From Antedon bifida (lineage: Eukaryota; Echinodermata; Crinoidea; Comatulida; Antedonidae): a DNA stretch of 64,000 bases. This document shows, piece after piece, positions 86 through 43,800 of this stretch (positions are counted from its first letter, which is position 1; each line of letters begins with the position of its first letter). Made by a program: the position numbers and the translations under genes. The stretch covers positions 16,559,001 to 16,623,000 of the forward strand of contig OY727095.1 in assembly GCA_963402885.1 (NCBI GenBank), in the 5' to 3' direction. The notes beneath the pieces were generated by a model. It saw only the letters and a list, made by a program, of their open reading frames with translations. It made no database searches and was not told the DNA's origin.

Positions 86-231
86 CCGATGAATACCATG
101 GTATATCATCTGTCCTCCGTGATCCCAGATTTTAAATGTTTCTTCCAAAGTCTCCTCCTTATTTTCCTCAAATTTCTTGATTAAATCTTTATCTAACTGC
201 TGTTCTGTGTCAATCGGATTAGCTTCAGTAT
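86..231 (-). CDS. ROC G3 exon (WDHGGQ) of module A
   Basis: The exon has its acceptor at 231 and donor CGG/gtaagt at 86. It encodes an acidic helix (DTEQQLDKDLIKKFEENKEE) followed by IWDHGGQMIYHGIHR. WDxxGQ with a following YH and H is the G3/switch II of ROC domains. It is very close to the exon at 38865-39019, differing by a few substitutions and small indels. The next exon, expected to start like the one at 32946-33035, would lie left of the window. Confidence 0.85.
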
Positions 232-3200
232 CTGTTGTGGAAACAAAGTTTTTTTGTGTTACACTGAACATGCATGCACACAAAAACTGCAGATCACTGC
301 ACTCTGGCAGTCCACAACATATTTGCAATGTGGAAGTAAGTAATCTATTTTATGCCTTGATGCTTTAAATAATCTCCTCCATACAAGAGAATAAAGTGTG
401 GCGGGTATGGTGATCAGGGATCATGGTTAGGTTGCAGTACTAGACCTAGGTTGAAAATCGACCCAGCAAGATCACCTGATTAATGTCATTGTCTCAAATT
501 AAGATTTATTCATTTTTGTCTCTGGACAAAAAAAAAAATGAACTTGCATACCTTTTCCAGTTAATTTCTTTTTAACCTGACAAATAAAATGAAAATATAA
601 AAAAGAAATATTTAATTTTTTCTGTACTTTTTTCATTTCATAATTTCAGTTGTCATGTTTGATTACAACATTTCATACAGTATATACATTATTAATTACA
701 GTAATACACTCACATCTTGCTTTGTCTGATTTAATGTACCATCTTGTTCTTCATTCTTATTTCCTAAGTAAAAAGTAGGTTGACGATTGTTTTAAATTAA
801 TTTGAAAACCATTTTAAAAATGTGTGAAATGTTCCATTATGCATATTTACAGTTTACAAATCAAAAAACAATAATCAAAAATACTGAAAAAGGAATCCTG
901 AAAAATACAGCATCAATCAATTTGATATAGTTGGCATAAGAAATTAGAGTAGCAATAATTGTAAAATGTAATATATAACACCACACTACTATATTTTTAT
1001 CAAAGATAACAAATCATGCAAACATATTTCAGAAAATTGTTCATGAAACATCAAATGTTTGTATGATGTACATAATGATCTTAAAAACAAATCCAATTTG
1101 AAAAAGAAGATTGTTAACTAAATAAAAGTGACAATTTAGTATTGTATTTTTCTCTAAGCCAATATTGATTTTGATGAAATTAAATGTGAGTCTAGTATTT
1201 ACTGTTTGTTTCCCAGAATTTTGCTAAATATAATATTGAGACCGGTCGATAATTTTCAGGGTAATCTTTAGACCCATTTTTTTTTGCTTGAAACACATTT
1301 CACACACTGTGTTTAAAAAGTATTTTCTCCCCAACATTTTTTAAGTATAAGATCACAATTTCTGGACTTATATCCTACCTAAACTAACATAATGATCCTC
1401 TCCTATCAGACCAAGAAGAAGCTGCTGGTCATCAGAGTTCAAATTTCCTTTGATGTCATTGAACAAATATCCTGATTCAGAACTTTGTTTCTGGCTTGTA
1501 ACTATCCGTATGTTGCATTTGAGAACCATGGCCATTGCACGTACTGCAACTGCATCAACCCAAGTTCCATCTTGTTCAAGGTTATGTAGGTAATGATCAT
1601 TTACATGTTCCTTAAGTGGGTTGTCGTTATCCTGAAATATGTAAAGAGTTAATTAACCCCTATATAGTAATATTTTATTGCACATTTACTGTATAGTATT
1701 GTACAAAGTTTCAGTCTCACCAATTGTTGCAAGAACTCTACAAGTTCAGTTCTCATGTTTGCTACAGGTTGTACAGGCAGTTGCATTCTTTCCAATTGAT
1801 CTTGTATGCAATAGAAAAAACAATTGCCGTCTCCAGGAACATTCTTTCTTATCAATAAACCTAAGGATGCTACGTTTTCTTTCAGTCGGCTATAGTGATC
1901 TTGATGCAAGTCTGAATCTAAAGGTATAGAGCGGTTAACTATACCATCAATTTTTAGTCCCAGCATTAATTTTCATTTCATTCATTTTTATTGTCAAGCA
2001 AAAATAAGCATCAACTTTAAATAACCCAAAATAGCAAAAGGACACAATTTAAAGCCCCACTAAAATATTACTTGAAAAACATTAAACCAGGTCATTTCTA
2101 ATCTTAATATTCTCAAATGTTAGAATTGCTATATTATCAAGCTTTCGTTTTAGAATGGTTCTCGTGCAGTACGGCCGGTTTAACAGATCATGACCATACT
2201 CTCAACTAAGCTCCCATCATGTTCATTTGTAGGAACTCTCTTACTACTACCACTACTAGTAGTAGTAGTAAAAGCAGCAGTAGCAATATACGCATTGCAT
2301 GCGTATTGATATTTTCACTTTTCCTTTGTGATTCACCTACTTTTGATCGATCGAGAAGGCCAAAACAAATGGAAGAATCATAACTTTTCAGCAAAAATTA
2401 TGGCAAAACAGAACTAGACAACGTCAGGCTAGGCCTATAGCTAGTGTATTATGGTCGTACGTTACTGCTGTTTACTAGCTAGGCCTACAAAACTAAACCT
2501 AGCTAGGCTAGGCATAAAGACTGTCTACAATAGGACATTCATCGCAAGCTACTTAAGTAGTGCAATGTTTCTCTCTTTCTATCATAATTTACCTTAAAGG
2601 ACCACTTGACCAAAAATCATATCTTTAACAACATATTAACATCCCTAATACATTGTTCAAATATGGTTCTCGGTCAAGTTGTCCTTTAAAACATACATGT
2701 AAGACATGGTTTAATGTTTTTGAAGTAATATATATGCATTATTTTTACAAAACGTCAAAAATTGTAGGGAATGGGTCTTTAAGTAGCAGTTTTAAAACAC
2801 AGATTCCTCTTTTAAATTTCCTAAAATTTCTATGAAAGTTGAATTGTAAAGAACTTGGAGAAAAGTTCCAATTTGTTTACTGTCTGAAAAAATGTAAGTT
2901 AAAGGCAAGTTACATACCTTCTCCAGTAGATTTTTTGTCAACCCAAACCTGATAAATTAAAAAATAAATAAAAATTATAAACAGAATATATATATATATT
3001 TTACAGTAATTTGAGCACAAAAAAGATCTACAAAACATAAACAAGTTTACAATTAAAACTCAGTTTTGGATATTAACATACATTTTTATTTGAACTGTCC
3101 ATTGCATTAAGTTCATCAGTGATCAATCTTGTAAACTGTTTTGAAGGATTACCTGTAGAAAATCATAGTGCACATTAATACCTGTAGTTGACTAATAATC

Positions 3201-6200
3201 TTTTTTAAATCTGGAAAAAGTAATAACTTGTAACAAGTTGTAACCTGGTTTGCATAGTGTTAAAAAGTCTTGGGCCGGTGGAGGTACACAGGATTAGGCC
3301 AGGCTTAGTATGTACTCAGGCCTAGCCTAGTGATAAAGACACAAGGCCATAACCTGTATCATTAAAAGCTTTATTTAAGATAACCAATACAAATCAATAA
3401 TTCACAGTTGGCAAATATAATTTGAATGAAATTTACTCTACTTTCAGTAAATCATTGCAACATTCTCAGCCATGATTTCGGAAAAACTTTTGCAGTGTTA
3501 TGACGTCATACATCAACTCGTACTCATGTCAGAGAGCGAACGCAAGTGCTCAAATTTGCCAGTCAACGTGCCAGTCACCTAGTGCATGCGCATATCATAA
3601 AAATGACGTCAGGGTAGCAGTTGCCATAGTCGACATGAAATTTTAAAAGTCTCTAATACTTTATCACAAGAATTTGCAAGGTTCGCTATGCCTGTTGGAA
3701 TACATATAATAAATCAAGAGATCAGAATATGCTGTAAATCTTTAAAGTTATAACAAGTTGTTCACAATTTATGCAGTGTGAAAATAGAATTTCTCTGGAT
3801 ATTCACATATGCCAAACTCATTGACAATGACAATTGTATGAATTACAATCTTGAAAAATCAAACAATTTAACAAAGAGATCATGGAGTAACAACTGTAAA
3901 CTAACAACTTTTTTCTTGAATTTCTTGGATGTAGTTTAGTAATACATTGCCTTTATAAACATATGAAATTAATGGTATACATCTGCCATGGTTTTGTGAA
4001 CAAAATAATATAGCTGTGCCCATGATGACAAGAATGCTAAATTTATTCATATTTACCACTATCAGCATTATCCTCAATCCATGTTGTGCTTACAGTTCTT
4101 ATCACTGCTATGCCATCTGTAACAACATGTTTCGTCTGAAATCTGAAGGAAATATCATTTTAAACAAATAATCATCCTATCTCTTTAAAACATGTATTAT
4201 ATATAAGTGGTCTATTAAGATTACAATTTCAAACAAATTAAAGATGGCTAGATTATATAGTAGGAGAATGTTTTCGGCCCAGGACGCTTTCGCCACAACT
4301 GAGATAATTTTGTATAAAGGTTGTTAAAATACATACAGGACTGTTTAGATAAATACCACAAAAATGTATACAATCAATTGGTTTTGGAAAAAAAAAATTT
4401 ACATTTTGGCCCAAAATGTTGTGGGCCAACTGGGCCGACACATTTCTGATTTGTTTTTTCTGCTTATTTGTTGTAATGTCCATTTTACTGTCCTACTACT
4501 ACTTACTCTTTTCCAAGTAAGGCATTGATCATGCATGTTTTACCCACTCCTGCCTGTCCAATCACCTTAAGCATTCCAAGATTGACTCTGACGAATTTCC
4601 CTTTCTTTAAGATTTCAATGTATGCTTCCTTGATATCTTTACCACGAGCAGTAATTGCAGACGGAATAAGGTTTTCAACTGATAAACAAGATTTAGATGT
4701 AATTTTAATTTGAAGCAATCAAGTATGACTCCAATCTATCAGCTCTGTCTCGTTAAATGGACTAATGATTCATGAATCTTTCAACTCAAAGAAATATTCT
4801 TCACTCATTCAACTCATAAACATTTGTTAATTGTAAACATTTGAATGGAAACAATGTCTGTCTTTAAATTTGTTTGTAATAAATTATTGTGCACTAAAAT
4901 AACGAACGACACTATTGAACTTTTTGCTTAGTTAATTTTAGTTAATATTTATGAGTTAGATGCTATGGTATGGGTCTGTTGCCGTTAGCAGAGTGTGGTA
5001 TTGCAGGATGTTTAACATCGCTAGACGTGATTTCGTATGAGAATCGGCTGATCTGTCTGTCTTTCGAACAGTTCATTTATTGTATCTATATCCGTCAGGC
5101 AACTTTATTAACACTACCTCCACTATCACTATCATTATGTTCATGAAACACAATAATCTTCTAAATCCATAATCCCAGGGACTGCAGTTTGGATTAGATT
5201 AGGCCGGGTAATTGGCTGTGACGTGGATGACCTAACCACTAGCCAATCACCAGGCACTATAATATAAATAAAATCAAATAGATGAATTAAGGAGATTCAT
5301 GAAAAAGCCATGTATTTAAACCAATATTATTGCACAGCACACCGCTGAATACAGTAAAGACATACATGGTCAAATACATCATCTAAGTATATAGCTTAAC
5401 ATAACTTTTATTTCCGGAGGTTTTTGGAACAAAAAAATAATTCATCCACTATCGCTATCATAATATTATAATTTAAATATAAAAATTGTATATTTTATTA
5501 ATATTAACAAATATTTAAAACAACAGTGTATTGTTTTGATGTATTGAATAAAGAGATTGAATTGATTTTCAAATGGTTGGTGATTCCAATTGATAATATT
5601 AACCCTTTTTAACTCATTTGGCTAATAGTGCCAGACAAAATAGTACTTAAGGGTGCCCTTTATTGCATACTTTTTCATAGAAATGACGGGTGAATTAAAT
5701 TCTAAAAATTGTATTCTGTTTATTTTGTATTGTCATGATATGATACGGCCTTATCATGTTGAAACACAGGTTTTTTTTTGTTTGATCACCAAAGCTGATC
5801 ACCGGCTGGAGCTTGGATGGAAGACCATCTGGGAATATTGTGTGCAGTATATATGGAGCTGGGGTCTGATCAGGCATTTGAAATCAGCAATGCTGACTCT
5901 TATGGCAGCCCCTGCATCTAGTATCTGCCTCAGACGTATTGGCTCATGTCTTTCCTCTGGTCAAGGTGAAAACAGACTTAATCTACATCATTACCATTAA
6001 TATTATAACATACCTAGATTTGGTCTTGATGTCTCAACATAGCCTATAACAAATAAAACATATAATTATTATTTAAATAAAAAAATAAACCAGATTTATA
6101 TATATATGTATAGAAAAACTCAACGAGTGATATTATCCTGGAAATTAAATAATACAAAAAAAAATTAAGATGAGGAAATCTGTGAGAATGAGAAAAAAAA

Positions 6201-22854: not shown

Positions 22855-25800
22855 CTTCACTTTGTTCACATTGGTGACTTGATGATGCTGCCTCACTTCT
22901 TCTCACTATCGCCTACAAATAATCATTTAATGTAAATAATCAACTTTATTAAATAAAAAAAAAACCAGATATTATTAATTTGAATCAAATTACAATTACT
23001 GAAACTGTTTAAGAATGAAAGATTCAATAACTTTACAAATAACTTAATACAAAACAAAGAATATATGCATACCATTACCAAGTAGTATGTTACTTGCTAT
23101 TTTGCTAAGACGACCTGCAAACATCTGTATTTTGTCTAAATCATCAGATAATTCTTGCTCAATCTCCAGACGGAGAACTGCATCCCATACATTGGAGAAG
23201 TTATATTTTGTCAATTTATAGTAAGCAGTAACATTATGTAATGCATCTGGGTCAACTTGATTCAGGGCCTTGAACAGTCGCTTCCTGTAAGGTGACAACT
23301 TAGCTTTACCAGTATGTCTATTCTGAATGTTGTTGTTTGTCATATACTTTGATACAAGATCTTTGGCCTGTTGGATTTCAGATGTATTTGTAACCTCTAA
23401 CAGCAAGTTAACATTGGTTGGTGAGATTAAACCTTTGTCTTCAAGTGCATTGAGCAATTCATGTCCATTGCAATGTGGATTTTTAATTTCACTGACACTC
23501 AAGTGAGAAAATAGTAGGAATCTTAGCCAACGGTATTTTTCACCGTCAAAGCATCCACTGAGACCAGCTTTTAGATCTTGGAAATTGTCGCAAGTTTTCG
23601 ATTCTGCAATTGTGTTCCTGTCTGCAAATAAAATTATAGCACATTTATTATTATTTTTTATTATTATTTCCAAAATGAAAATAATTTGTTTGTTTAATTA
23701 TAAGTATAGACTATCAACAAAATGTAAAAGCATAAAAAAATTAAACAAATTAAAAAGTAATTGAGGTAAATGTTAAATTTGTGTTATGTTCTCTCTCCAC
23801 TCTACTATTTAAAAATAAAAATATTGTGGAATTATGTCAGGTTCAGATCAAGTTCAATAATAAATATCAAACTACGGTAAACTTTGGAAAACTTGATATT
23901 GTAAGTTCTGGAAAAATTGACAGTCACATGTGTGTCATTCTAGACTTGGCTATATGTGGCAAGTTTTGGTATATTAAACAATTAAAATTAAGGACTTGAC
24001 AGTAGTTGGCTGAAGTCAGCCATAGCTAGGCTGGTACGTAAGCCACGGGCGGGTAGAGGCATGTCCTTGGTTTTGCTTTCCCAATGTGTTCCCAACAAAG
24101 ATTAATGCATTGCTGTAAAACTATTTCTCAATTGAACTGTTGATTTTATGCATTTGTGTTAATGCTAGTTTATTTAGTTCAGGTTCGAATTGAATGCGTC
24201 TGTGATGATACTATGTGTCCCATGCAGGATAGGCCTTGCTAGTACTACTGTAGTAAACTAGTATAGTACTAGTATTACTGAATGGGTACCCCTGTTACTA
24301 GCTATAGGCTAGCCTAGACCCAATCATCTGTTACATGAGTCTAATTGTCTTTGCCATCTAGACCATGATGACCATAAACAATTCTAAATTTGGTGTAAGT
24401 ACAGTACTATCGTCATTTGATGCAAAAACTCCAACAGGTAAAAAATAACCACAAATCTTGAACATGACAAATTTTCACAAACATTTTTTTTTGGGGTTTG
24501 CACAAATCAATTTCAAGTCTAGTTTTAAACTTAATAATCAACATTATATTCTTGGTGCTATAATAATATGATCATAAATTTTAGAGAGAGTATATTATCA
24601 TCATCATTATAACCAACTTAAATTTTTTAATTTAAAATTATTATAATCTTGTTCATCATCATTATGTGTGTGTGTGTGTGTGTGTGTGTTGTTCGATTTA
24701 TAAAGCGCTTATACAATCAAAAGATTGTCCCAAAGCACTGACAGAAGAAACAGAAAGAAATTACAAAGAAAAAAGATGGGTTTTGAAATAGATAGTGGAT
24801 GCATTTTTAATAGGATCAGGAAGATTGTTCCACAATATCACTATCTTTATCTACTAGTATCTTACCTTCACTTTGTTGGTGACTCTGTGATGTTCCTTCT
24901 CTTTCATCCTCATCACTACTACCTAAAAATGATAAAAATGAGAAGTATATGTTTAAAGTATGTTAGGATTTGTTTATATACATGGCACTTTTACACTGGA
25001 TGATCGAGATTTGATCATTAAGAAAGTAGTGCATTACTAATACACTATCAAACTTGTTTGACATAAAAAGTGTGATGTCGTGAGGTAATTTCCCGATTGA
25101 TCGTAATCAAAACGGTACCGGGTATGGTCTACTAGCTTTTCTGCTCCCAACCAGTACATCCATTCATAGAAGCCTTGATTAAGTAAGCCTACCTGGTGGT
25201 AACCATAGAACGGTCCCGAGATAACGACTATACTTCAGCTTTAGTCGATAGAAGATTGAAATATTGTTAGAGATAGAGTATACGATGTTTGATTATGTGT
25301 AGATATGTGATTTGTTCTATTATCCAAATGATGTTCCGTATATAGGAGATGAAGATAGTAGTTGGGTGTAATGATTTTGTATATCAAATAATTATCCTAG
25401 ACTGTATATTATGCGATAAATAATATTTTATATATATTTTAAAAAATATTTATTGTTATGATTATAATATTAATAAAAATATATTTGTTAGTATAAATTA
25501 AAAAATTAAAAAATATAAAATATAGATATAAAGAAGAAAAGCAAAGAGGTTATGGAGCGGCTATTCCTGAATATACAATAATAAGTATCGTAAGTTTAAT
25601 TTATAAATTTTAGGCGATCTTGTCAAAGGTCAAGCGCCTATAGCCTGCTACGTTTCGATATTCAATATTGAACTTGAAAGCTCTCTGTCTACACTATCAA
25701 ACAAATTTGACAAAAAAGTGTGATGTGCCCAAATATGAGTGATATACCCAAATATGGTAGTGATATGACATCATCATGTCCATATGTGGGCACATCACAT

Positions 25801-28800
25801 TAGCGACACATAGGCCTAATATAACATACCTTGATTTGAACTTGTCCCCACATCATCTGTAACAAATAAAATATACAATAATGAAATAATGTTACTTTAT
25901 ATATATATATATTTTAATATATTGTATATTTCCTATTATATTATTAGCTGTTTTAGGTCTTCAACCCTGTACAAGCTTTTAGCTTTTTGTTGTTGATCCT
26001 TTTCATCTTTTATGCATTTTATCTTTACATGTTTTATAATTTTTTTTTTTGATGAAAAAAATGAATGAAATGAAATGAATTCAATGGATGCTATACAAAT
26101 TCTATATTGCCAACACAACAGCACATTATCACATGTTCAAATGTTATAATAAAAGCAGCAAAGTATTTTATAAACCATTGAAGTGTTTTAGATCATCATC
26201 ACATTCTGTTATTTCCTTCATCATTTTAATTTTTATTATTTGATCAAAACCAACAGCGATGAAAACCACCATTAATATAAATTTGCTACTTAAAATTGTC
26301 TATACCAATTCATTTATGGAAAGGAATTACGTTGACCTTCATCCAGTCATTGGAAATGGTACCGGTTGAGAGGGATAAATTAAACAATTTTGAAAGCGGC
26401 TCAGCAATAAATGTAGCAGTTATCTTGAGCATAGTAGAAGTTATACCATCTTGACCTTGTGATTTACCAAATTTAAGCTTGTTTACGAGTCGCAATACCA
26501 AAACACTTTCATGAATATAAATTTGATATCTTGTTATAGTTATATTCTGTTTACTAGGGTAGGAAGCACTCGAGTCGGGGATGACGGGCCAAGTCACACA
26601 TTGCAAGGGCATATCACATACTTAGGTTTGGGTTTAGTTTTTTTCCTCAATTTTCTACTGTTTGAGAGGTTTCACAACATACAGAGCTTTATAAGTCCAT
26701 GATATTATAATATAAATACTCTGCGTATTTGTTAGACTCTCACAATGACGTGCCATATACACATATCCATTTCTAGAACATGTATGCACTGAATAAATCA
26801 TGGTACCCATCTTATGCTAAAATAAAATTCATTGATATTAACAAAGACAAATAATTTATTATACAAATAAACGCACAAGTCTAAATTTGTGCGTTAGAGG
26901 AGATGCGGCAAACTTGAGGGTATTTACAATGGTGTATGTTGCACAACATTTTTAATACCAGAGAGTTGCATCTCCAGTAACGCACAAACTTAGAATTGTG
27001 CGTTATTTGTTTTACAACATGGGTCTATGAATTATTATCACCACTCTGCTCGGCGACCAAATCACCGACAAGGCCTAAGGAGCAGCAATCACCACTTTGC
27101 TTGCCGACCAAATCACCGTCTAGCCTAGAAAATGGTACAATGCCTAGCACGATCGGTAATACTCTGCCATATGATTTACACGCAGTGGTGTTATGCTTTT
27201 TTTCCACTTCAGTGATCGCATGATAGTGAAAAAATAAAGAGCGCCATGTGATTCATTTCAGCGCATCTGATTGGCTACTATACATCTTTGAACCCATGTT
27301 ATAATACTAGTTAATTATCATTCATAAAAGTAAAACATAGTTTTTACAATTTAAATTTTTTTTAAAATAATCTATTTATCTGATATATAATATTTCAATC
27401 ACCTTGGTCTCTTTTTCTTCTTTTTCTTCCCTTTCCAATTTCATCTGCAAATAAAATGAAAAATATTACACTAGTTGAACCTTCTGTAAGTGGACACCAT
27501 TGGGTCCAGAAAAGTATCTGCTTATAAAAGTGCCTACTTATGACAGATTCAGCTGATAGTATCAATTGAGTGTTTATTAAGGGAGGGGAGGAGCACTGCA
27601 TACCATGTTTAACTATAATCACTTGAGACACAAAGATAAAATTGCTATGCAAGTAATCTACAACAAGCGACAGCTAATCTGAGCTTATCCAATCCTTTAC
27701 TTGTCATTGGTCAAATTACTATTGTTGTGCCTACGTTCTTGTGTTGCATCCTAGAGATCCAAACAATCGTCATTGAGGGCAGCACAGCATTAACAAAGGC
27801 AAATACTTTATTATAATTAAATATCATTGAGTCCATAAAAGTACAACATTTTGCAAAATTTATCTACTTATTTCAATCAATTACCTTCATCTGAATTTCT
27901 TCTTTTTCTTTCTGTTTCATCTGCAAATAAAATAAAAAATATTAGTTGAACCTCCTGTAAGTGGACACCATTGGGTCCAGCAAAGTATCTCATGGATGCA
28001 CACCAAAATGCAATGCACAGCTCATCTGAGCTTATTCACTTGCCATTGGTTAAATTACTTGTTGTGCCTACATTCTTGTGTTGCATCCTAATGAGATTCA
28101 AACTTAACAGCCAACATATTAAACTCTTGTCAAATAAAAAAAATAAATAGTTTTATAATATTGAACCTCCAACATTCACATTTTTGAATTTTAACTATCT
28201 TGACATTAACAAATAGATTGTTAATATTTTAATATTTTAACTAAGTAGAGATTATCAATAATGATTCTATTAGTACTACTACTGGTAAGAGGAATGAAGA
28301 TATCAAAGCTAATAGCAGCATGTTGTAACAATGTATAGATTATCAATAATGATTCTGATAGTACTACTACTGGTAAGAGGAATGAAGATATCACAGCTAA
28401 TAGCAGCATGTTGTAACAATGTATAGATTATCAATAATGATTCTAACAGTACTACTACTGGTACGAGGTATGAAGATATCACAGCTAATAGCAAATTGAA
28501 GATATTTACTAATTTGTATGTGTTTGTTTAATTAAATTAAATAATAATCATTTAGTTTATTGTTTATTGGTCAAATAAATAATGAAAATAAACTTGTATA
28601 TATATATATTACTCTTACTTCCAAATAGCCGCTGGTAACGTGAAACATCCATTGAAAATGTCGCGCCAGTTGTGGTGCATTTTAACTTTCTATACTGGAA
28701 ATATTCAAGATTTTGAATGTGCTTCTTTTCTGATGTATTACTGCATTCACAAAGTATGCATCTCTCATATTGAATCCCTCTTCTACCACCATCTTTAGAA

Positions 28801-31800
28801 GGTGCAAATGACTTCTGGATTGTTAACAAAACCTAAAATATAAATTGAATGGCAAACTGCAATTAAAACTATACTATGTAGCAACTTTGAATCAGCAGCA
28901 CAAATTCTTAAAATGTTGTGTTCACTAATAATTACAATACAATAAAAGAGAAAACTAAAACAATAACAAATAAAATATCTAAAATACAATTCTAAAGTGA
29001 ATTTTTAAAGACGTTTTTATAAATCATTTGTTATTAATTAATGTTATATAATAAAAAAGTCAATAACAACTAGTTGTGAAAACTGTACTTTAAGTTGCTT
29101 GTACTTTAAATTGATATTATATTAACATTTTATCATTTTATAATTAAATTTTAAAGATGTTTTTATATCAATTGTTACTAAGCAATGTTATATTATATCA
29201 TAATTAATTTACCTCCGCCAAGGAGGTATATGTAATCGATCGTGTGTGTTTGTCTGTCTGTCTGTTTGTTTGTTAGCAGGATTACTCAAAAGTAATTACA
29301 AGATCTTTACCAAAATGAATAGATATGTGGTCAAGGACCATTCCATTAAATTTTGTGACCATTTGGAACCATGGGCCCAATTCTGGACCACTTTTTAGTA
29401 TACTTTTCAGACCTGCTAGTGTTAAAAGATAGGACAGAATTTTTCAAAAGCCGGCGAGCAGTCTTAAAGTAACAAGTAAACTGCAAATTGCATTTTCTCA
29501 AGAACTACTTGTCCAAGAGTTATAATTTGTGATTTGTAATTTTAAAACATAATTTGATTGAATGTGCATGTTTTTTGATGCGAGTAGTTTAAAAAACCTA
29601 TTTCTTTTCAAATTCACTCGTTTGATTTTCGCGTTGCTGTTCTATTGTTAGTCAACTGAAGCTATTGTTAATTGAAAGGCTTGTTACATAACCATTACAC
29701 CAAACTCGCATACGCATGCTTGTAGTGAAATTAGCCTAAATCACAAACAGCATTAAGACACACACAACTATATATATATCTTATGTAGGAGAATTTTACA
29801 GTAGGCGGAGGAATGCACTCTCGGAGTGGCTTTCTAATTAATAACGTTAACTGAAATCAATAAAGTTTTAACGATATGGTAGATCTTAGCAATAGTGGGC
29901 TTAGATGTTTTTTTAATTATTGAAAACTAAACCAATCTACAGAATTACAACGTCAAATACAAATTAAGACAATGAAACGGCTAAACGCATTACACAAAAA
30001 TTATTTTAAATGTTTAAATTATTTTATTTATTTTATTTTTTTATGTCGTACTATAACAATCTCAAAATCAACCAAAGCATCTATAAAAAATATGTAGTTC
30101 TCCAAACTGATATGAAATAATAACCAACCTCTTTACATGCTTCAGAAGAGGGTTCCTCATTACTTGTTTCATTAAGAGCAGGAGTTCTTTTAATAGTCAC
30201 CTGAAAAAAAGGAAAGTGATGTTTTGATATTTGAATTTGAGTTTATGAATAGATTAAATTATGATTTATTCACAAGATATTGAATGATACAGTACCTTTA
30301 ACAAGAACTTTCGCTCATTCTCCTTAGTTATGAATTTGACAAGAGATAAAGTTACATCATGATCTTGGTCGAAGTAAAGTTCAGCATGATTATACAAGAG
30401 TATTGGGTCAACTCCTTTCTTTTGAAATTTGTTGAGGAAATCAATAATCATATATGGAAACAATACATCTGGCAGATATCCCTTAAAGTCGTAATAGATA
30501 CTGATAGCTGGAAATTCATCAGGCACTGCTTTCACTTCACTTGCTGTCTTGAAAGCAAGGCGTAGTGGCACAAAAAATGATTGCTTTCCAACAGATTCCT
30601 GAAATTGTTGATTTGTAAAAATGCCATTTAAATTTCTTTTAAGAAAACTAATTTCATGTACATGTTAAAAACATCTTTCAGCAGAAAGTTTAATCAAAAT
30701 ACGTCATAACGCTACAAATAATTAGAAATTGTATGTAAAATTTTACCAATTATGTATCATATAAAAAATCGTTTTTTTCACATTAGCTTCATGCAAAACA
30801 TAACATGTTAGAAAACAAAACCTACTGTAGATGTACTTCCCAAATCTTGGCTGCTGGTTGTCTTCCTTTTACAAATGAAACCTAATTGAATCATCAGTGC
30901 TACAAGGAACTCAAAATTCTTTCCTTTGTCAACATTACTATCTCTCCATAATTTTCGCAACAACTTTTCTTCCAGTATGCCCTTGTCAAGCTTATCATAA
31001 GATTCATTAAACATACCGTACTAAAAAAAAATTGTTACTTTCTGTTTTTATTACAGAGTGGCAGAAAGGAATCAAGAGGGATACAGGGAAATAGTCAACA
31101 AATAAAGTAAACTTTTATAACATGAATAAATGTCAATGTATAATGCAGTATTATCATTGTGAAATTACAGTAGTTTGTTGCTGTGCTTTTTACTTTTTCA
31201 ATTATAATACAATGAAAGTAACATAATTAAAACGTTAGTCACTTGCAAATGATGCCTTCCAGCATACTTAAATATAGAACATCTTAAGCAAGAAATTTAA
31301 CACAGAACAGGAATAATTATATTACTGCAACACGTTTTTCAAATGCAAGACATTACATGAGTCTACTTACAGATTTTGAGGGAACCACAGTTACAAATGC
31401 AGTAACAATTTCAACCAGTTTCATCGGATCTAACACTGCTTTATTGATTAGTAATTCGTTGTCAGGCATGTAAACAATTTCACCATGATCGTGCAAGTTT
31501 ATAAGCAGAACTGATTTGGTTTTTTTGTCAACAATACCATTATTACTTGCCAGCGTTTTGAGCTTTAAAAATTAGTGTTAATCAGATTTTTTTTTAAATG
31601 TAGGTATATATTTATTATCAACATTATTTTTGTCCTTAACAGCATACATTTTTTGAGTAAATAACACTTTTTGGTTATCCAGTGTAGTGAATATAAATAA
31701 ATGTTACCAAAATAAACAAAAGGGTTCACTAAGAAGTTTGATAGCAAGACATGGACACAAAAACAGCGATCATTCTCACAGGGGTATACCCACATGTTCT

Positions 31801-34800
31801 GGCTGACAATACATATTGCCAGCATTACCCTTTAAAATAAGAAATCATACCGGCATTGTTTTGAGTATATAGTATTACATACTAACTTGGTTAAGGGAGG
31901 ATAATTTTAGTATTTAGGTAAATGCTATTGCTAAAATTCATATAATTTATGTAATAATAAATAATTATACAAAGTATACTTTTTTTAAATTTGTGTGCAT
32001 GTTTTATACTTAAAAACAATGTTATTTGATAGTGGGACGAAAAAAAACCCCAATTTTTTCACTTATTAGGTCAGTATTTAGTAACGATTTAGAAATAAAA
32101 CAATGGCAACATATATAAAAGATGAAAATATGATCTTGAATATTGTTATTTAATTGGTTATGACAAATTCCAGTATAAAGATCATTTTTAAAATTATATT
32201 TTTTTTTTTAATAGATACTTGATAAATATTTGTGACTTTCTGACTGAAAGTGTTTATTCTATAAAATATTATTTCCAAAAATGTTCTGAAGAATGATAAA
32301 AAATAACATTTACCTCTTCTAAAGAACACAAAGAAAAAGAGGGCTGTTTTTCTCTCCTTAGATCATCTAGTCCACATCTAAAACGCATCCACTTTAAAGG
32401 AATTTCCTTTTCTAAAGCTTTCTTAAGGTCATCAATAACTTGTTTGAGATCACCAAAGCTCTTATCTGTCGTTTCTTGGCTGTTTTCAATGGCAAAATAT
32501 TGATACACATGTTTTCCATATGGTTTTCTTTTAAGCACATCTTGAATCTTTTTAAACATCTTTTCTGCCTGTTTGTAAATAAAGATTTACATCTATACAC
32601 AAATGTGTCAATTCTGTAATTTATTTTAAGTAAGATTTGAAAACTAGTCTAGAAAACTCAGATCTAGAAAACTCAGATCTCAGATATATCTGAGTTTTCT
32701 AGACCTAGAAAACTCAGATATCTGACTTTTCTAGATCTAGAAAACTCAGAGACATTATGAGAACACCTAACCACAGTAAAACCTGGAATGGTTAGTTTTT
32801 GAAAGCATTCATTACTACATCTTATTTGGAAGGCATTAAATAAAATCTTTTATAAGAGTCAAACTGTTTTTAATGCATAAAATGCATGTTATAAATTAGA
32901 AGACTTGTTCAATCTCAATGCCTTACTGCATCTAGAAACACTTACTTCATTAGAATCAATGAAAGTAGCAAGATCATCCAATGGTTTACTGAGATCAAAC
33001 ACAACAATGTATAGTGCTTGTAGTGTTATGAACATCTGCAAAAATATTCAAATATTGACTGATTAATATTCTTTAAGGCCTTCTGACAACATATGAACAA
33101 ATATTATTTTAAATTGTATTGTTGCTACAAATGCCTCGACATTGCAGTGCCAGCCTTATGTTTACGGAATGTTTTTATGAATTGTTAAGAAAATCAATAT
33201 ATGGCCTGATGGGTAGACTAAATGCAAGCGAAAATGTTTTAGTCTCAACGATTATAAGCAACGTCTTAGTTAAGTCGAAGATGCTCTCCAGGTGGAATGC
33301 CATCCTGAGATGAGTAGTAGTAATTAGTCTTGTTTATTTTATTTGATATTATATGTAATTTTTACTTTCTATGGACCAGAGATTCCGAAATAAAAGATTG
33401 AATGAATGAATGAATATATAATAAAGACTTTCATAAAGGTAAAAGGTAAAGGTATTATAATAATAGTTGTCCTCAAGCCTAACTGAAAACTGAGGAAATT
33501 CGGATTAGGCCCTCCACTGACCTACAGCAGCCAGCAGTGCAGCGCCTACCAGATCAGCACACCGGGAGATGACCCTACTCTTTGTGAATAGTGTACCAAG
33601 TTCTTTAACGTGTACACAAGACGAGTTTACATCCAATCCGAAGGACGAGGCAATGAGAGCATCTTGCCTAAGGATACAGTTAGTATGGTACCGATTCGAA
33701 CCCATGCCTATTATATGCTAGTCTGATATTATCATTACACCATCGCTTTCCGGTATACAGCACCCGCCGTGATTCCTGACAGAATGCAACCGGGCCCAAC
33801 ATTGCTTAACTTCGGTGATCTGACATAAACCGGTGTTTGGCCGTATACACACATTTTTTGATTTGTGGCGAAAAGCTACTGAAAATGTGTAATATTAACG
33901 GGTGTCTAGAAAGCTAAGATCTAGAAAACTCAGATCTGAGATATATCTGAGTTTTCTAGATCTAGAAAACTCAGATATCTGACTTTTCTAGATCTAGAAG
34001 ACTCAGATATCAAGATCTGAGTTTTCTAGTTCCAGAATGAAACTAAAAAACCCATTGTCAAATGGATCGTTCCATTATTAATCAGAGGGTAGCTTGTTTG
34101 AAATACTACAGTATTATACGTTTTCTTACTACTAATAATAAATATTGTAACTTGTAGTAGAGGCCTACAACTTATATCATAAAGAAATACAGTATACACC
34201 TTTTAAAATATAGGCTTAGCATTTAGGCCTAGTCTAGCTATTACAAACTCAATTCAAGGCTCAACGTGTGGGCGCTATCGCAATGTATCGCGAGGGGGGT
34301 CAGCCTGGCCCTACTAGGCTAGAAGTGGTCAACTCGTACCCAAAATAACTCATACCTATTCCCAACTTAACTAACGTACTAACTCGTACCTCAACCAACT
34401 CGTACCACACCAACTTGTACATACCTAATTTTTAAGCCTACATTTTAACGGTAACGTGCAGTGTATTTCCGTTATGATTTACATGTTGACTACATGTTAC
34501 AATATTAGTAAGAAAACGTACACAGAGTAATCAGTTTTAATAATACTCTAGTATTTCAAATGACCTTCTGATTAATAATGGAATGATCCAAATGACCTAC
34601 CAACCAATCATTTGATGATCTGAGTTTTCTAGTTCCAGAATGGAACTAGAAAACTCAGATATTGATATCTGAGTTTTCTAGATCTAGAAAATCTAGACAC
34701 CTAATTTTAACATTAGGCATGGATATTTTATATTCATGCAATGTTGTGAGGTGGTTTCCCGATTAAACGTACGATCAAAACGGTACTGGGTATGATCAAC

Positions 34801-37800
34801 TAGCGTTCGTGTTCCCACCTAATCATCCATTCATGCAGAATGATGAATGGATGATGGATATCAATCTGTGGCGATGAAGATATCAATCTGTGGCGACAAT
34901 AGAATGGACCCGAGACCTGGCTATCTTCGACTTTTAAATAATAGAAAGTTTTGAAAATTTTGTTAGGCTAGAAATGTACGTTGTATGATGTGTATGTATA
35001 TTGAAAAATGGTTGTAGTTTTCAAAATTACATTGTACAAGTTGCGATGAGAAAAACTGTTATTTGATCGTTAGTTGACGTGTACATAAAGCAAAAATAAA
35101 AATAGAATAAAATTTGTTAGTAAAACTTTAAATAAGAGTAAAGATATAAGGAAGAAAAGCAAAGAGATCATGGAGCGGCTGTACCAGAATATACAACACA
35201 AGTATTGTAAAGTTAAAAAACTAAAAAATTTAGGCGATCTTGTCAAAGTCAAGCACCTTCAGCCTGCCACGTTTCGATATTCAATATTGAACTTGACCTG
35301 ACGTAGTTCCACAATATCTTATTATAAAAAATTGTAGAGTGGATAGAAAACTATTAAAAATGGTTATTGTTAAACTGTTTTTAATATACGTTTTAATGTT
35401 AAACTATGTTTACATTGTCTCAAAAAAAAAAGTATTTTATTTCAAGATGAAGGAGATTGAAAGTTAATGTTGTGTACTTGTTTCTGTGTATACAGGACGT
35501 TAAAAATATTAAAATTATTATATAGGATTTATGTAATATGATTATATTTTATGGTTTATATGAATGATAATTTTAAAATAGAAATGATTTAGTTCTAAAT
35601 ATAATATTAAAAGTCTTACCTTGTTTGAAAGCCATTTGGTTTGGATATTATTGAAATAATGATATGTCAGAGCTGTTGTAAGTTTAAGATGTTTTTATCG
35701 ACCTTTTCTTTGTGAGAATGTTATGTTTGAAAGTAACAAGTTCGAAGGTTTGCTATGTGCATGCGTTAGAACGTGGTATCGAATTGACGTGGGTGTTTTG
35801 ATTACGCATAAAAGTCTGTATAGATTATTATATGGGAGGATTATATACATAACGGTTTTTGGTTTTAAATTTTATAGTGGAGTAATTTATTTAGATATAA
35901 CATTTGAGTTTATATACTTGGTTATGGTTGGAAAAAATAGTGAATAGGGTTTAGGGGTAAAAACATAAATAAACAAATATCGTTTTAGTTGGATTAGGCA
36001 TTTGTAGGGTGGTTTATGGGGAAAGTTTTATAGATTTATTAAATATCGTTTTTGATTAGGTTATGTAAAGGGGTAGGTTTAGGCATGGATTAAGGAATAG
36101 AAGGATATGTATCAGTTTGAGTTCAAAGGTTCCATGACTCTAACCTACAGAGCGTGGACCGCCCACAATGTTACAAAATAAACACAGTACAGTATAATTA
36201 ACCGTCGTTAACAACGAAACGGTCGTGTGCCTAATATATTGTTTACTGCACATGCTCAACAACCTTTAACCTTGTTGGCTATGCTTTCGCGCGCTCTTAT
36301 CTTGGTGGCATGATTAATATTTTATATTTTTAGCGCTAGCCTAACTTTTCTGAATTCAAATTAAACGATCTCCCAGAAATATTACAAGATTATTAATAAA
36401 TGTAATTACAAGATTAAATACAAATTGTTTGTAAATTGTAGTACCCTTTGTGTTTAAAAAACATTAATTTTGCCATGTTCAAAATCTGCCGTGATTGATC
36501 TACGCTAATGTTTCTATGACCTTAAAGTAGCATTTTATGACCTGTAGTAGCCCTACATCTGAGGACACAACTAGTTGTTGTCTCAGCCTACATGTAAAAT
36601 TACAAAATCAGCAAGGATACTAGGCCCAGGCCTTCTAGGCTTACTAGTAAACTCTATGATTTGCCGACATTGATATAGACCTAGGTAGGCCTATTGGTAG
36701 GCCAATCTTCAGTGTAGTAGCGATCTATATTCTCATCGTTGTCTACTTCTTGTGGGAATAATAATACAGTAATATAAGCTTGCCTTGCGAAAACGAACGA
36801 GCGCTAGTAGAGAGTAGTACAGCAGTAGAGTCAGTGGTGATGTATAGCCAGCCAATCCCGGATCAGGGATCGCACTAGCCAATCACCAGGCACTACAATT
36901 TAAATATAATCACATCGATAATTAAGGAGATTTATAAAGAAACCACTGCTTAGCCATACATTAAAAACACGATTGTTGTATGTGTGGACACAGGACACGC
37001 TAACAACATACATTATCAAATGCATAATTTAATATTCTATAGATTAACGCAATTTTTAATGACAGAAGATGGCAGGCAAATAATGATAATTCAAATATAA
37101 AAATTGCATATTTTATTAATATTACCAACTACTTAAAATTACCAGTCGTAAGAAAGTGAACTTTTCGTAGTCCGATTGTGATGAAACTAAAACAGAATTG
37201 TTCAGCAATATATTGTTGTTGTCAATTAATCACCGACGCAGACATGTCAATAGAACATTCAGACTGTGCATATCATTTCTACATGGCTACGTTTTGGTCT
37301 CAAAAAATGTAACAGTTGATTCGCAGCGTTCTACAGAGGGCCGCGGTTAGAGACACAGAGTTCAATGAGCGTGTTTGTTTGATTGGCAGCAGTGCTTTAG
37401 TATAGGCAAGCGCGTTGGAAAATCGTTTGATGTCACTGTCGATGCATATCCTTCTATTCTTTAATCCATGGTTTAGGGATATAATAGGAAAAATAATTAA
37501 GGGTCGTTTAATTTATAAAGTTGAAATAGGATGTTTGGTTAGTTTTAGTAATAACTTGGAGTAGGTAGTTTATGAATATATAGGAATGGTTGACAAATTT
37601 AGAAGTGAATTCTTATATTAATTAAGGTATAGTGATCAAAAAATAAATTGATGTCATTTAATAGTGTGCGTTTATAACATATTTCGTATAAAAAACATTT
37701 TATAAGTCATAAAACTCAAAAAGAATAAATAAATATAGAGGTAAACATTATGGTACAGTATGAATAACGATTTATTTGACAATATTAAAGTATTTATATG

Positions 37801-40800
37801 AATATATAAAATACAACAATTTAGTATTAAAGTACTATATGATATTAAAATAATATTAAATTATACTAAACTTTTAAGTTAATATGTTTGAAATGTGTTT
37901 AAATTGTTTAATCTTTTTGTCGTTATAAAGCACCTATTGTATTTTATATTTGTTGTTGAGTAGGTGTTCGTGGTTGTTTATAATGCCTTGCATAATATTT
38001 TTTTTATCTGTGGTAGTTTATCAAACTTTGCTTTAATAAAAATTGTTTTTTTATTAATATTTTTTGTGATCCTTTTCTTTGGGTTCTGTTTAAATTGTAT
38101 CAAATGTTTATTGATAAATTTATGACTGTAACCTATTTTCTTTAATCGTAATGAGAAAAGGGTGGTGATGTGTTGATATTCTTTAATATTGCATGATAGT
38201 CGGTTATAACGATGGGATTCCGTTTTGGTAATACTTTTAAATATTGCGGGGTTATGGTTGGATGTTTTATGAATATATGTATTTTGTTTTGCGCATTTTT
38301 ACACAGTGAACAACCACACACTTGTCAAGAGGCTGTTGTTGACTGATCACATTTCATTAACCTGTAGTGTGCGCTGTGTCTAATTGTTTTACTCCCTGTA
38401 TAAAATTAGAGTGCTGCTTTTTCAATGGCCTAGCCTCTTGTTAAAAGTAGGCGTGTTATACTTTTAACAAGAGGCTAGGCCAAGGCCTAAACTATTCGAG
38501 AAGTAGAACAATTATAGACGTGACAATACAGATTGATTTTTCAACACGCAGTCTATTCTTACTACCTTGGCAGATGACAAGGTAGACAAGGTAGGTAGTC
38601 TATTCTCGCGTCCCATGTTTCGGTTGCTCACTGTGTAACATAAGAAAAATGTGTAATCTGACTTAAAAGTTTAATAGTATATTGAATATCATGTGACCCA
38701 CAATCCTCCAATCAAATGACAAGAATCTAATATTAAATTGTTATATATATTACTATGCAGTACCATGGAAAGATGTTTGCAATTACTTAATGGGAAAAAA
38801 AAAGAAAAAAGCAAACTATACCTTGGCCATACAATTATGTTAGTCTATACAGAAACCTACTTACCCGATGTAGACCATGGTAGATTAATTGTCCCCCATG
38901 GTCCCAGACGTTGAATGTTTCTTCTAAAGTCTCCTTATTTTCCTCAACTTTCTTGATTACATCTTTATCTAATTGCTGCTCTGTATCAAATGGGATAGCT
39001 TCAGTAACTGTGTAAGCACCTGTAGTGGGAACAAGTTTTTTGGTCATTCCACAAACGGCATAACAAGCATCATTGTTTTAGTCCTATAATCATCATAGTT
39101 AATCAGTCAGTTAAAAAGTCATTACTATGAGTATAGTTGTCTTTATTATCATCATTAGTGAGCTTTTGCATCGGGACGGTAAGCGAAAGGGGACGGTAGA
39201 TATGAAAGGATACGGTAATATATACAAAATATTAATCTGCACATTTGTATAAGCCCTGTATATATTTATGTATATTATATAGTCGGTGTAGACCGTGAAT
39301 TCACTTTGATTCTTTTAGATTCATACCATTACAATTTGTTTTATGTACCCAAAAATCCGGGCGATTTCCGCTAAACGGCACGAAATCACCGAAAAACAGC
39401 TATTTTTTGGAGGTTTTTTCAATGTAACTTTGTTATTAATTGACCGATTTTTATGGCTGTTTCGACATTGTAACGCCTAATTAAGTACCTACGATGTCAT
39501 GTTATTTTTAATTAAAAAAAACTTAAAACGTCGTCGGCATTGATTTTTAAAGTTAGACGATTTGAAAATTGCCCTGTGTTAAAGAATAGGCTTGTTTTGC
39601 CAATTTGTTGAGATCTTTACAAAAACGTTCATAATGTTTGACCTAGTTATCCAATGATATTGGCTGTTCCACCATGCAAAAGCTAATCAATCAAGCTTTC
39701 TAATGACCTAAAGTAAAATGTGATTGGTTCAGATACTTCGTCGGCACAGCCCCTTTTTTGAAGCAGTGTCTTGGTTTGTCAGTGACCGACTAGTGTTAAA
39801 GGATAGGCGAAAATTTTCGAAGTCGCCCAACGTTTCCTGAGCAGTCAGAACGTAACGTTAAAACTAAAATTACAGTTGCTGAAAAACTACTTATTCAAAA
39901 CGCTTTATTTTTTCACGAAAGTTAAGAGTTATTATCCCTTATTTGTAATATGTAAATGTATTTAAGATAAGGGAACAGGATTTTTTATATAAGTAGTTTT
40001 AAAACACTTGGTTTATTTAAAAACCACCAGCGTGGTTTTGCCGTATTGGCGGACTCGTCCATTTTATTAATAGGAAAAGGATTGTAGCACAAAACGTTGA
40101 ATTTGACCTATATGGTTTCCATTTCTGTTTTCTAATGTCAAATTAATATTATATTATTAGTATCTCTATGTAATATATAATATATTCATATTGTACTAGT
40201 TAGCATCTACATACCGTTATACTGCACTTTAAATTTGTTTTGGTGATTTTTCAATGAATTGTATACACAGGGAGTTGGTATACCATTGGTTCTACTAAAA
40301 TTATTATTACTTTTATTTGTTTGTGCAATATTTGAAGATTGCTACAAAAATAGAAATAATTTAAATATAATAATATTTAACAGATTAAGTGTACGCACTA
40401 TGCATATGGAACAGATTACCTATCCGTATCGGGCGTAGTTCAGTATGATATTCTATTATTACCTTCTGTATCAGCCTCCGCCCTTTTGGGCTTTTTTTTC
40501 CTACACAATACTTATTGTTAATGTACCATAGTTATTTTAAGGGGAGTAGTCTCCTAATAAATAGTTCTTAGCACTCTAACATTGTTCTTTTGTACCTTTC
40601 TTTTCTTTTATTAAAAACTTTTGTTAACTGTCTGAAAGTTACCTCCTAGTAAAGTGGAACGACCCAACATGGTTCATTAAACACCACTGTGTTAGGGAGC
40701 AGATTGAGATCAACTGATAAGAGCCCAACGCACTAAAATTAAATAGGCCAAAAAAACAAAACAAATTGTAATGAAAAAAATAAGCATCTTTGTAAGCCCT

Positions 40801-43800
40801 TTTTAAGGTTTTAATTAGGTGTTTTATTTCATCTTTTTTTAACTTTGCTAACTAAGAAACATGCCCACCAAGGCTGCATGTACAGCGTCTTTGGACTGTG
40901 TAGGAGTGGGATGGCCGCTGCCATGTTTTCTCCAAATTACCGTCACCATATTGTTGCCTCTAAGTTATAAATCTGATAACATAATTTTATACTTAGTTAC
41001 ATTAAATTGGAAAATCTAACTAATAATCTTATAATTTTAAAGATGTATTGTCCCCCTGAAAAAATAATTTTTTTTTAAAAATGCCATTTTAATGTCACAT
41101 AATAGTTATCCACTTTGACCAAAAATTGGATCGAAAAAAAATGTATTTACTTAAAAAACTGTAATTTTAAGCAGAAAATAGTCAAATTGACTGCCAGCCA
41201 ATGGGTATTTGGTTGAATTTAACCATTTATTTTGTTATTTTATAATTGAAAACCTTAATTGTTTCTTTTTTTTTCTACAGAAATTTTTTTTAATGCTTTT
41301 ACTACAAAAATGTAAGAATAATTAGAATTTAAGGGAAAGTTATACATACCATCATTGTTGTCATCGTTATTGTAGTCAACAACAATACTATCATCATCAT
41401 CATCTGTAAGTGGTTTCATGTCAATCTGACACATAAAACAAAAACAATAAATGGATATAACAAAGAAATAAATGTTTTATTCAAAGTTAAATACAGTATT
41501 GTTTACAATTTAATATAAGAGAAAACTAATATTGTTTACTCTCAAAAGAGTAAATTTTAAAAGGATTGAAGAATCAAAAAAATGAAAGCTGCTCATAATG
41601 CCTCATTGGTTCATTTAAAAAGAAAGCCTAAGTGACTGATTTGCAATAGTCCTATAGGTGCTACTTTATTCATTTTATGTTTTCATTACACTATTATTGA
41701 CATACGTTTATAGTTTTCTTTTCTCTTAATTTGTCAGTGACGATTTTTGTATACTGTTTTGAAGGATTACCTGTAGAGAAAAAAGACATTTGTACGTATT
41801 ATTTCAGCAGACACATTAATAGGTGACAATACTTTGACTGATTGATTATTTAAAGTAAAATTACAATTACAGTACATCAACAAACAATAGCTTGCGTGTT
41901 AAGGGATCATAGAGTATTGTAACAATAGTAAAGTATGTATGTGAAAATAAGACCATTGACACCATACTACGGTTGAATGCCTTATTGAATGCCATTCTAC
42001 ATCTCCATGTGGGGCTGTTTGTGTCTATGATAATGAGATTAATGATAAATATTGTTACAATACATAGCCTATGATGATGGGAAGAGTAATACCGTAAAAC
42101 CTTGAAAAGAAGCCCATGTGCTACTTCTTTTTTTAGAGCTCTTGGGTGGGCTTCTTTTTGATGGGCTTCTTTTTTTAGATGGGCTTCTTTTCGAGAGTAC
42201 TTTTGCAAACTGTAGAGGGGGGCTTCTTTTCGAAATGAATGCTGTAAATTTTGTGAATTTCTACTACAATAATATGACTTTTGAAATTATGTTTAATATA
42301 CCAATTAAAAAACAATATAAAATTCACCGTCAAATACAATCTTTGGGGTCTTATACTTTTGCTTTATAGCTGGTGCATAATATAAAAACAAATAATACAT
42401 TAAACGAAAATGGCTACACCAAGTCCTATCCACAAAGTGGCAATTGTTTCATCTAGAATTAAAGGACACCATGTTTTCAGTACAATTACGAAATAAACGA
42501 AGAAATGATATGTAAACTGGAACCTAAAAACAAAAAAAGTCTAGGCAGAAATGCAATCAAGGTATGTTCGTGGAATGGTGCAGATGTTGGACATGTTCCT
42601 GAATGTTTGGCTCAGATAATAGCTCCGTTGATGAAAGATAGGAGGACAGTAGTGCAGCTTATAGTCAAGATAACTGGAATGGAACGAACGGCCCCAGAAG
42701 GAAATGTGTACTTGGTGGAGGTGTGGAAATTCCCTGCCGATTTTCATATTTGTCAATGAAGCAGACAAGAAAAAGATACAAGATGCGATCAAAGCACCAT
42801 TTGGACGACAAAAAACTGTAAAATAAATATATGATAAACACGATCATACATATTAATTATTATCATCAGTCTGCATCACAAGTATCTGGCATTAAATTAT
42901 CCTACTACAGTAACTCTTAATCACGTGTTTGTATTGTTTATTTCTGTTCCTTTGACGTTCAGTTAATAAACCTACATTCTTAATACAGTATAGTAGTCTA
43001 TCTCGAAAAGAAGCCCATACTATCTTGTTTCGAGATGGGCTTCTTTTCGAGAGTACTTTTGCAAACTGTAGAGGGGGCTTCTTTTCGAGATGGGCTTCTT
43101 TTCGAGGTTTAAGCCCATGGGCTTCTTTTCGAGGTTTTACGGTATGCTAATTTTTATTCATGTTTACCACTATCAGCTTCAGCCTCTTTCCATGATTTGC
43201 TTACAGTTCTTATCACTTCTATGCCATCTGTAACTACATGGTCTTCCTCAAATCTGAGATACATATAATTTGAAACCAACAATGAATGTCAGTCATTTTT
43301 AGTGCTGTAAAATTCAATTTTCTCTTTTTAATTATAGATACCAGTAGTTACTATTTCAATAGTCTTTATTTATAAAATACACATTTTAAATCAGTTATTT
43401 AGTCAACAATTAAAATTATCTTTCTTTTAAAATTACAAAATAATGTTAAAATTTAATTCTATTATTGTTATTGATATTGATTATTGGTAATTAGGCAGTA
43501 CCATGTATTTTGTAATGTCAATTTTACTGTCCAACTACTTACATCTTTCCAAGACATGCATTTATGAGGCATGTTTTACCCACTCCTTCCTGTCCAATCA
43601 CCTTAAGCATTCCAAGATTGACTGCGACAGATCCTCCTTTCAAAGCTTCCTTGTACGCGTCCTGATACTCTAATTCACGAGCAGCAATATCAGATGGAAT
43701 ATCTGAAAATTGAATAAGATTTTAAAACAGAATTGAATAAATAAAGTTCAATAAAAAAATCTACAAAACCATGCATAAATATATATATATATATAAATAC

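Follow-up and report, generated by a model that had tools for sequence, protein, structure and literature searches.

The OTUD deubiquitinases known to us are free enzymes, and we know of none that sits inside a GTPase domain. In bacterial Roco, nucleotide drives a change of conformation and of oligomer state (excerpt of PMC11052575); in brown-algal ROCO genes, exons of the same phase are shuffled and alternatively spliced, and the proteins have been proposed as immune receptors (excerpt of PMC11378527); and Helentron/Helitron elements carry OTU proteases (excerpt of PMC4067079). Here we describe a gene of the crinoid Antedon bifida, gene 1, in which a pair of exons encoding an OTU domain lies in the middle of a ROC gene of the LRRK2 type, a DNA arrangement that is confirmed in three genes of this species and is a new variant of ROCO architecture, real and unusual. 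Gene 1 lies in, and was extended with downstream DNA beyond, a stretch of 64,000 nucleotides that we call the window (assembly GCA_963402885.1, contig OY727095.1, here C8, positions 16559001-16623000).

An OTU exon pair in the middle of a ROC gene

An earlier reading of the window without database searches (the sequence-only reading) had reported a P-loop GQAGVGKTC, a switch I VVTDGIAV, the OTU motifs GDGNCFF and DHYVSL, and WDHGGQ, and all five are indeed encoded on the minus strand between positions 4678 and 86. Its observation of agreeing splice phases without a stop also held, as the nine exons from A to E (Table 1) have AG/GT borders in agreeing phase and join into 343 amino acids with an open frame. 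The full model, composed of a DED-like exon, exons A to E and exons F to L, comprises 997 amino acids and contains 0 stops, with G4 and COR encoded by exons beyond the window end; no first exon with an ATG could be identified for it. A hidden Markov model search of the joined protein, the check proposed by that reading, supported both domains at issue: Pfam returned Roc at 51.3 bits (cut-off 27) and OTU (PF02338, cut-off 23.3; E = 1.3e-11) at 45.5 bits in the whole protein and 49.6 bits for the domain alone, along with COR-A at 40.7 bits over residues 670-806 (cut-off 35.3). The G1 and G3 motifs of ROC are both present (GQAGVGKT, WDHGGQ), and COR follows ROC directly.

We next located the OTU relative to the GTPase fold. 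In the 997-residue numbering, the P-loop stands at 221, switch I (TDGIAV) at 246, the OTU exons at 301-450, WDHGGQ at 511 and THKGE at 598, and the Pfam OTU match (residues 328-437) lies within a single ROC domain, after its P-loop and before its G3. A profile of the family, placed on two solved bacterial Roco chains, matches as far as switch I (residue 78 in 4wnr, 79 in 3dpu) and again from beta3 onwards (residues 91 and 90), with only 12 and 10 residues separating the matched parts; the extra sequence therefore takes the place of a loop of that length. As judged from these alignments, the OTU is located in the predicted beta2-beta3 (interswitch) segment, between the two switches, flanked by linkers of ~49 and ~56 residues. 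The distance from G1 to G3 is 291 residues in gene 1 versus 108-232 in the 15 Antedon mediterranea proteins with both motifs, a comparison from which the long interswitch linker of this family appears to predate the OTU. The sequence-only reading had placed the OTU between G1 and G3 of ROC; exon order, Pfam and the profile placement agree with it, and the splicing of the OTU exons to both ROC halves is predicted.

The same order recurs in two further genes, X1 and X2, in which exons A to L are kept and open throughout. Because gene 1, X1 and X2 lie within ~360 kb on one strand, the simplest history is one insertion followed by duplication: an exon pair of symmetric phase 1, carrying the OTU, would have entered the interswitch linker in a single event, and at least two copies of the gene would then have arisen along the chromosome. 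Across the genome searched (315.6 Mb in 27 contigs), exon E has 71 listed matches, or ~67 copies once four short neighbouring pieces are subtracted, a lower bound in which not all copies are intact genes, and 3 of these lie in OTU-bearing genes. Exon D matches seven places (gene 1, X1, X2, X3, X4, a copy at C8:23464 kb and a C10 copy of 32% identity), only three of them inside ROC genes. At X3, where the ~1.46-kb block with C and D recurs, the 30 kb read showed neither ROC nor COR exons, a DED-like exon 15 kb away being the only neighbour, and the OTU has lost the Cys at the putative catalytic position. X4 was considered as a fourth inserted gene and rejected, as it is a 100-base fragment of D upstream of another gene's exon A.

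At its N-terminus, gene 1 probably includes the DED-like exon across an 18.4-kb intron, by analogy with gene 2, a neighbouring paralogue in which the corresponding gap is 922 bases and whose DED exon is 73% identical. The label is DED-like only, since the domain scores 20.0 bits in the joined protein (cut-off 35.9); exons in the window score 20 to 26 bits, compared with 45.5 for A. mediterranea P0002. Downstream of COR lies an exon with homology to P0005 of A. mediterranea that contains an in-frame TGA (~-7073..-7126), outside ROC, OTU and COR, at a position where P0005 reads through; it precedes a C-terminal DED-like exon that is 91% identical to an A. mediterranea protein.

Table 1 Features of the window and related loci. 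Positions are window coordinates (C8 = 16559000 + coordinate) unless a contig is given; negative values lie below window position 1.
Feature	Position	Strand	Remark
DED-like exon, probable N-terminal exon of gene 1	23079..23621	-	phase 1 on both sides; separate open reading frame, 23.1 bits
Exon A, ROC start, P-loop GQAGVGKT	4507..4678	-	68% identical to gene 2 exon A
Exon B, switch I VVTDGIAV and beta2	4057..4142	-	joined frame, gene 2 comparison
Exon s1, interswitch linker (GNPSKQFTRLITDELNAMDSSNKN)	3082..3152	-	counterpart in A. mediterranea P0051
Exon s2, interswitch linker VWVDKKSTGE	2918..2948	-	s1+s2 symmetric, phase 1-1
Block of ~1.46 kb with C and D	1331..2786	-	recurs at X3
Exon C, first OTU exon, GDGNC	1721..1917	-	putative catalytic Cys; weak acceptor
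Exon D, second OTU exon, DHYVSL	1379..1631	-	putative catalytic His; moderate donor
Exon s3, interswitch linker after OTU	714..763	-	s3+s4 symmetric, phase 1-1
Exon s4, interswitch linker	552..576	-	resembles s2 region
Exon E, second ROC half, beta3 and G3 WDHGGQ	86..231	-	joined frame, gene 2 comparison
Exon F, gene 1	-215..-304	-	below window
Exon G, gene 1	-412..-591	-	below window
Exon H, gene 1	-765..-1004	-	below window
Exon I, gene 1	-1708..-1902	-	below window
Exon J, gene 1	-2134..-2331	-	below window
Exon K, gene 1	-2502..-2807	-	below window
Small exon K2	-3094..-3147	-	also fits gene 1 model
Exon L, gene 1	-3646..-3856	-	below window
X1, OTU-bearing ROC gene	C8:16466329-16456161		834 amino acids from exon A, no stop
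X2, OTU-bearing ROC gene	C8:16218746-16209678		842 amino acids, no stop
X3, OTU block	C8:16852609-16854084		
Gene 2, OTU-less DED-ROC-COR paralogue	28618..45164	-	natural control for gene 1, ~40 kb away
Gene 2 DED exon	45164-44625	-	
Gene 2 exon A	43702-43543	-	
Gene 2 exon B	43253-43168	-	
Gene 2 exon s1	41770-41706	-	
Gene 2 exon s2	41425-41350	-	acidic
Gene 2 exon E	39007-38865	-	
Gene 2 exon F	33035-32946	-	
Gene 2 exon H	32568-32314	-	
Gene 2 exon I	31562-31371	-	
Gene 2 exon J	31020-30826	-	
Gene 2 exon K	30598-30296	-	
Gene 2 exon L	28832-28618	-	
Third DED-like exon	55659-55018	-	24.7 bits, below cut-off; 65% identical to gene 2 DED exon
Reverse-transcriptase-like open reading frames	7613-8597, 51937-52563, 53022-53492	+	RVT_1, zf-RVT; scores at or below cut-off
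ALKBH8_N match	48056-48592	-	24.9 bits
Tandem repeat	12801-14210		period ~89 bases (self-comparison)
Tandem repeat	20008-21642		period ~115 bases (self-comparison)
Tandem repeat	46988-47254		period ~29 bases (self-comparison)
88-base repeat	28232-28493		again in gene 1 below window
Two Roc-match arrays	C15:13.46-13.55 Mb and 17.17-17.33 Mb		mostly open frames of ~950-1000 amino acids

Predicted splicing and function of the OTU

We put at about 0.55 the probability that gene 1 encodes, as read from its DNA, a DED-ROC-COR protein with the OTU exon pair fused into the interswitch linker. The splice borders for this fusion are in the right phase in all three ROC genes, and the stop found behind D in gene 1, X1 and X3 is missing from X2, which is compatible with D being spliced onward. 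The diverged, broken OTU copy at C8:23464 kb keeps, as judged by eye, the position of the C-D intron and a phase-1 GT after HYVSL. Exons C and D together form a symmetric phase 1-1 unit of 450 bases (an open reading frame with exon D alone scores 32.3 bits for OTU), and the gene 1 frame stays open when s1+s2, s3+s4, both of these pairs, or C+D are omitted, so that splicing could yield a protein with or without the enzyme.

Several observations, on splicing and divergence here and on the two domains below, weigh against this reading. When every AG and GT in 124 kb was scored, the C acceptor proved weak (1447 of 6056 AG score as high; fifth lowest of the 29 acceptors compared), whereas the donor of D was of moderate strength, with 560 of 6996 GT scoring as high (eighth lowest of 29 donors). 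C and D can also be read as an ATG-to-stop frame, of 169 codons in gene 1, the GT conserved after D could equally reflect conserved coding sequence (LGR), and the OTU-less relative P0051 (below) is a predicted protein with a gene in which OTU exons may be present but skipped. Divergence among the copies is 0.4-5.9% in the OTU exons and 0-7.3% in the introns that can be aligned (a figure that excludes the intron after D of X2, which does not align with gene 1), and because these ranges are alike, no extra constraint on the OTU is visible; patches of near identity occur, as after gene conversion. The ratio of nonsynonymous to synonymous rates (dN/dS) in the OTU is 0.42 between gene 1 and X1 (3 synonymous and 5 nonsynonymous changes), 0.94 between gene 1 and X2 (3 and 11) and 0.89 between X1 and X2 (4 and 14). 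With so few changes, the duplicates are too young to reveal selection, their divergence being too small to part it from drift.

With regard to the OTU itself, GDGNC (the Cys and the preceding Asp) and HYVSL (the C-terminal His) are kept in gene 1, X1 and X2, and we presume for these residues the catalytic roles they have in OTUD enzymes; in X1, however, the residue next to the His on its N-terminal side is Y instead of D (GEYHYVSL), and the PDB alignments of the OTU, as shown, end before the His. With regard to the GTPase, G4 of gene 1 reads THKG, without the Asp of [TN]xxD, the residue that gives guanine specificity, and the A. mediterranea relatives that have the region read THKG (17 of 18) or THKA (1 of 18). 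Another ROC of A. mediterranea P0001 has THMD, and the majority in an alignment with corals is THAD. Because G1, G3 and adequate Roc and COR scores are present and the G4 Asp is missing, we class gene 1 as a divergent ROC-COR protein and not as a proven GTPase. AlphaFold models of the OTU-less P0052, built with 17 and 28 sequences, reached a mean predicted local distance difference test (pLDDT) score of 36.5 and 50.6, with residues 71-174 under 50 and the interswitch unmodelled. In Foldseek, the best E value was 0.07, with small GTPases heading the list and CtRoco at rank 5, matches that lend weak, model-based support.

The ATG-to-stop frame raises a rather unlikely alternative, in which an independent small OTU gene, intact or as a remnant, is nested in the s2-s3 intron in the same orientation and skipped by the host mRNA. 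Its frame would run from an ATG in phase with C, 48 bases ahead of it, to a stop 9 bases beyond the end of D, with 169 codons in gene 1 and X1 and 174 in X3, where no ROC exon accompanies the OTU block within the 30 kb read. In A. mediterranea the flanking linker exons are joined to each other directly, and the weak C acceptor also fits. However, all three ROC genes have both of the borders that a fusion requires, correctly phased, a coincidence put at ~0.3% from the site densities (a rough estimate on short stretches picked post hoc, with no formal test), X2 would run on to 242 codons, and the ATG has T at -3, a poor context for a start codon. An optional cassette, which overlaps with our preferred reading, is easier to entertain, and we hold it possible though at less than even odds: both forms would be made, with an OTU-less ROCO scaffold as the base form and the OTU-bearing isoform minor or regulated. 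Without C+D, all three ROC genes still have an open frame, the C acceptor is weak, and P0051 shows that the OTU-less join gives a sensible protein; yet symmetric phase is also what exon shuffling alone leaves, and the isoforms are predicted from DNA only. Decay of a spliced-in, functionless and drifting OTU seems to us unlikely, less probable still than nesting. The two higher dN/dS values, the lost Cys of X3 and the fragment at X4 are what drift would leave, and the intact frame, GDGNC and HYVSL in 3 of 3 ROC genes speak for retention, at a divergence too small to part the two.

The location of the OTU between the two switches also allows for gating by GTP, as the sequence-only reading had proposed, in which the nucleotide state of ROC would shift the interswitch and open or close the OTU, or ubiquitin binding would alter GTP turnover. 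The nucleotide-dependent changes of bacterial Roco (excerpt of PMC11052575) are in line with this, but the OTU sits on linkers of ~49 and ~56 residues, G4 is THKG, and the structure models are of poor quality where they cover the region at all, the interswitch being unmodelled. We regard such gating as unsupported speculation and as the least probable proposal considered here, and because of the linker lengths do not favour it over a tethered, skippable deubiquitinase. Slightly less remote, though still improbable, is a broader form, in which an interswitch segment moving with nucleotide would carry the deubiquitinase, GTP state or ROC-COR assembly would control ubiquitin removal at death-fold complexes, and exon skipping would act as a second on/off control.

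Our best reading is thus that a death-fold ROCO scaffold carries a tethered deubiquitinase that splicing could leave out, with splicing, folding, activity and partners all predicted. Held by its two linkers rather than welded to a switch, the OTU would act as an enzyme that trims ubiquitin, and assembly through ROC-COR would place it near ubiquitinated DED partners. If a deubiquitinase is indeed grafted into the interswitch, this segment of ROCO proteins would be a landing site for whole enzymes, and an enzyme within the switch region of a G domain would represent an unusual form of domain nesting. The arrangement provides a natural test of the size of insertion that a ROC domain tolerates, and the OTU-bearing genes, an OTU-less paralogue and an empty-site relative together make it testable.

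OTU-less relatives and further features of the window

We then compared gene 1 with relatives that do not contain the OTU. Protein searches covered lengths of ~548-1745, ~952-3029 and ~189-600 amino acids, with limited sensitivity, and a search with the ROC-OTU-ROC region of the gene 1 model found 15 proteins, 13 of them from A. mediterranea. The ROC proteins of this species (P0001-P0013, P0051-P0058) belong to the same family, with 54-76% identity over matched parts and a long interswitch linker. The sequence-only reading had proposed a search for the same order in related species; it was found in the two further genes on the same chromosome, and the 21 A. mediterranea relatives returned contained no OTU by Pfam or blastp. 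P0051 has the order s1-s2, s3-s4, E, with nothing between s2 and s3 and linker pieces 76% and 65% identical to those of gene 1. This is the arrangement that an empty site would give, as for an insertion by exon shuffling, and the difference may reflect gain in the gene 1 lineage, or loss or skipping in A. mediterranea. Exons s2 and s4 with their flanks are themselves alike (72.6% over 73 bases, E 3e-5). In A. mediterranea P0054, the interswitch linker consists of repeated s3-s4-like units and another insert, hinting at growth by exon duplication.

Within the window, the OTU part had no match in the gene 2 stretch at E up to 10; the model of gene 2 is incomplete, as its exon G was not found. 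No ROC exon was recognised between gene 2 and the third DED-like exon. The ALKBH8_N domain matched upstream of gene 2 is often found in retroelements.

Comparison with known systems

The sequence-only reading knew of no ROCO protein with this layout. That is too broad for the pair of domains: among 36 proteins retrieved with a coral relative's OTU as query, 20 match both ROC and OTU, with the OTU outside the stretch from P-loop to G3, and several of the others have NACHT or NB-ARC domains. Like gene 1, the coral proteins, for example P0014 of Oculina patagonica (ACROYT_G031114; LRR-ROC-COR-GT4-OTU), combine ROC with an OTU ending in HYVSL. Unlike in gene 1, the OTU follows G3 in 19 of 20 (close to the C-terminus in 18 and in the middle of the protein for P0017) and precedes the P-loop in one (P0049, a partial match), and none of the 20 has it between P-loop and G3 where both are seen. 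GDGNC is likewise absent from all 12 aligned coral OTUs, which have GSGNC, GLGNC, GEGNC and similar. Outside the crinoid genes, the protein searches found OTU with ROC only in corals, and no OTU inside a ROC domain. In the literature searched, an OTU domain within a Roco protein was not shown, although "OTU domain" and "LRRK2" co-occur in two reviews among the matches listed; "OTU" occurs 0 times in the excerpt of a ROC review and in the listed matches on coral OTU and NLR proteins, and "OTU domain" in none of the papers among the matches listed by a broader ROCO-OTU search.

The brown-algal ROCO genes resemble gene 1 in shuffling exons of one phase, but there the shuffled exons are LRR repeats, and the main text as excerpted does not contain "OTU" (PMC11378527). 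By profile, the solved sequences closest to the gene 1 OTU are OTUD-type deubiquitinases, 4bou (1.1e-10) and 3tmo (2.4e-10), structures of OTUD3 and OTUD5. Helentron and Helitron elements are a possible source in that they carry OTUs on mobile elements, though within transposon proteins. PF02338 had 50 matches in the genome (E up to 1), many in long open frames of ~1,000 to 3,200 amino acids, and in an unrooted tree the clade of OTUs from the ROC genes is placed next to P0015 and the long-frame OTUs, with a local support of 0.826, and away from the coral OTUs. Branches in this tree are long, and P0015 groups with the long frames at a support of 0.022. The tree leans, weakly, towards a Helentron/Helitron origin. 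Mostly among the coral proteins (P0014, P0016-P0050), one OTU module recurs in ROCO, NACHT/NB-ARC and TPR proteins and one RNF213-named protein, and this coral-type module is often accompanied by a GT4-conflict glycosyltransferase. Taken with the coral data, the crinoid genes suggest that ROCO and NLR-type proteins acquired OTU modules on more than one occasion, and ubiquitin editing may therefore be an output of invertebrate innate receptors.

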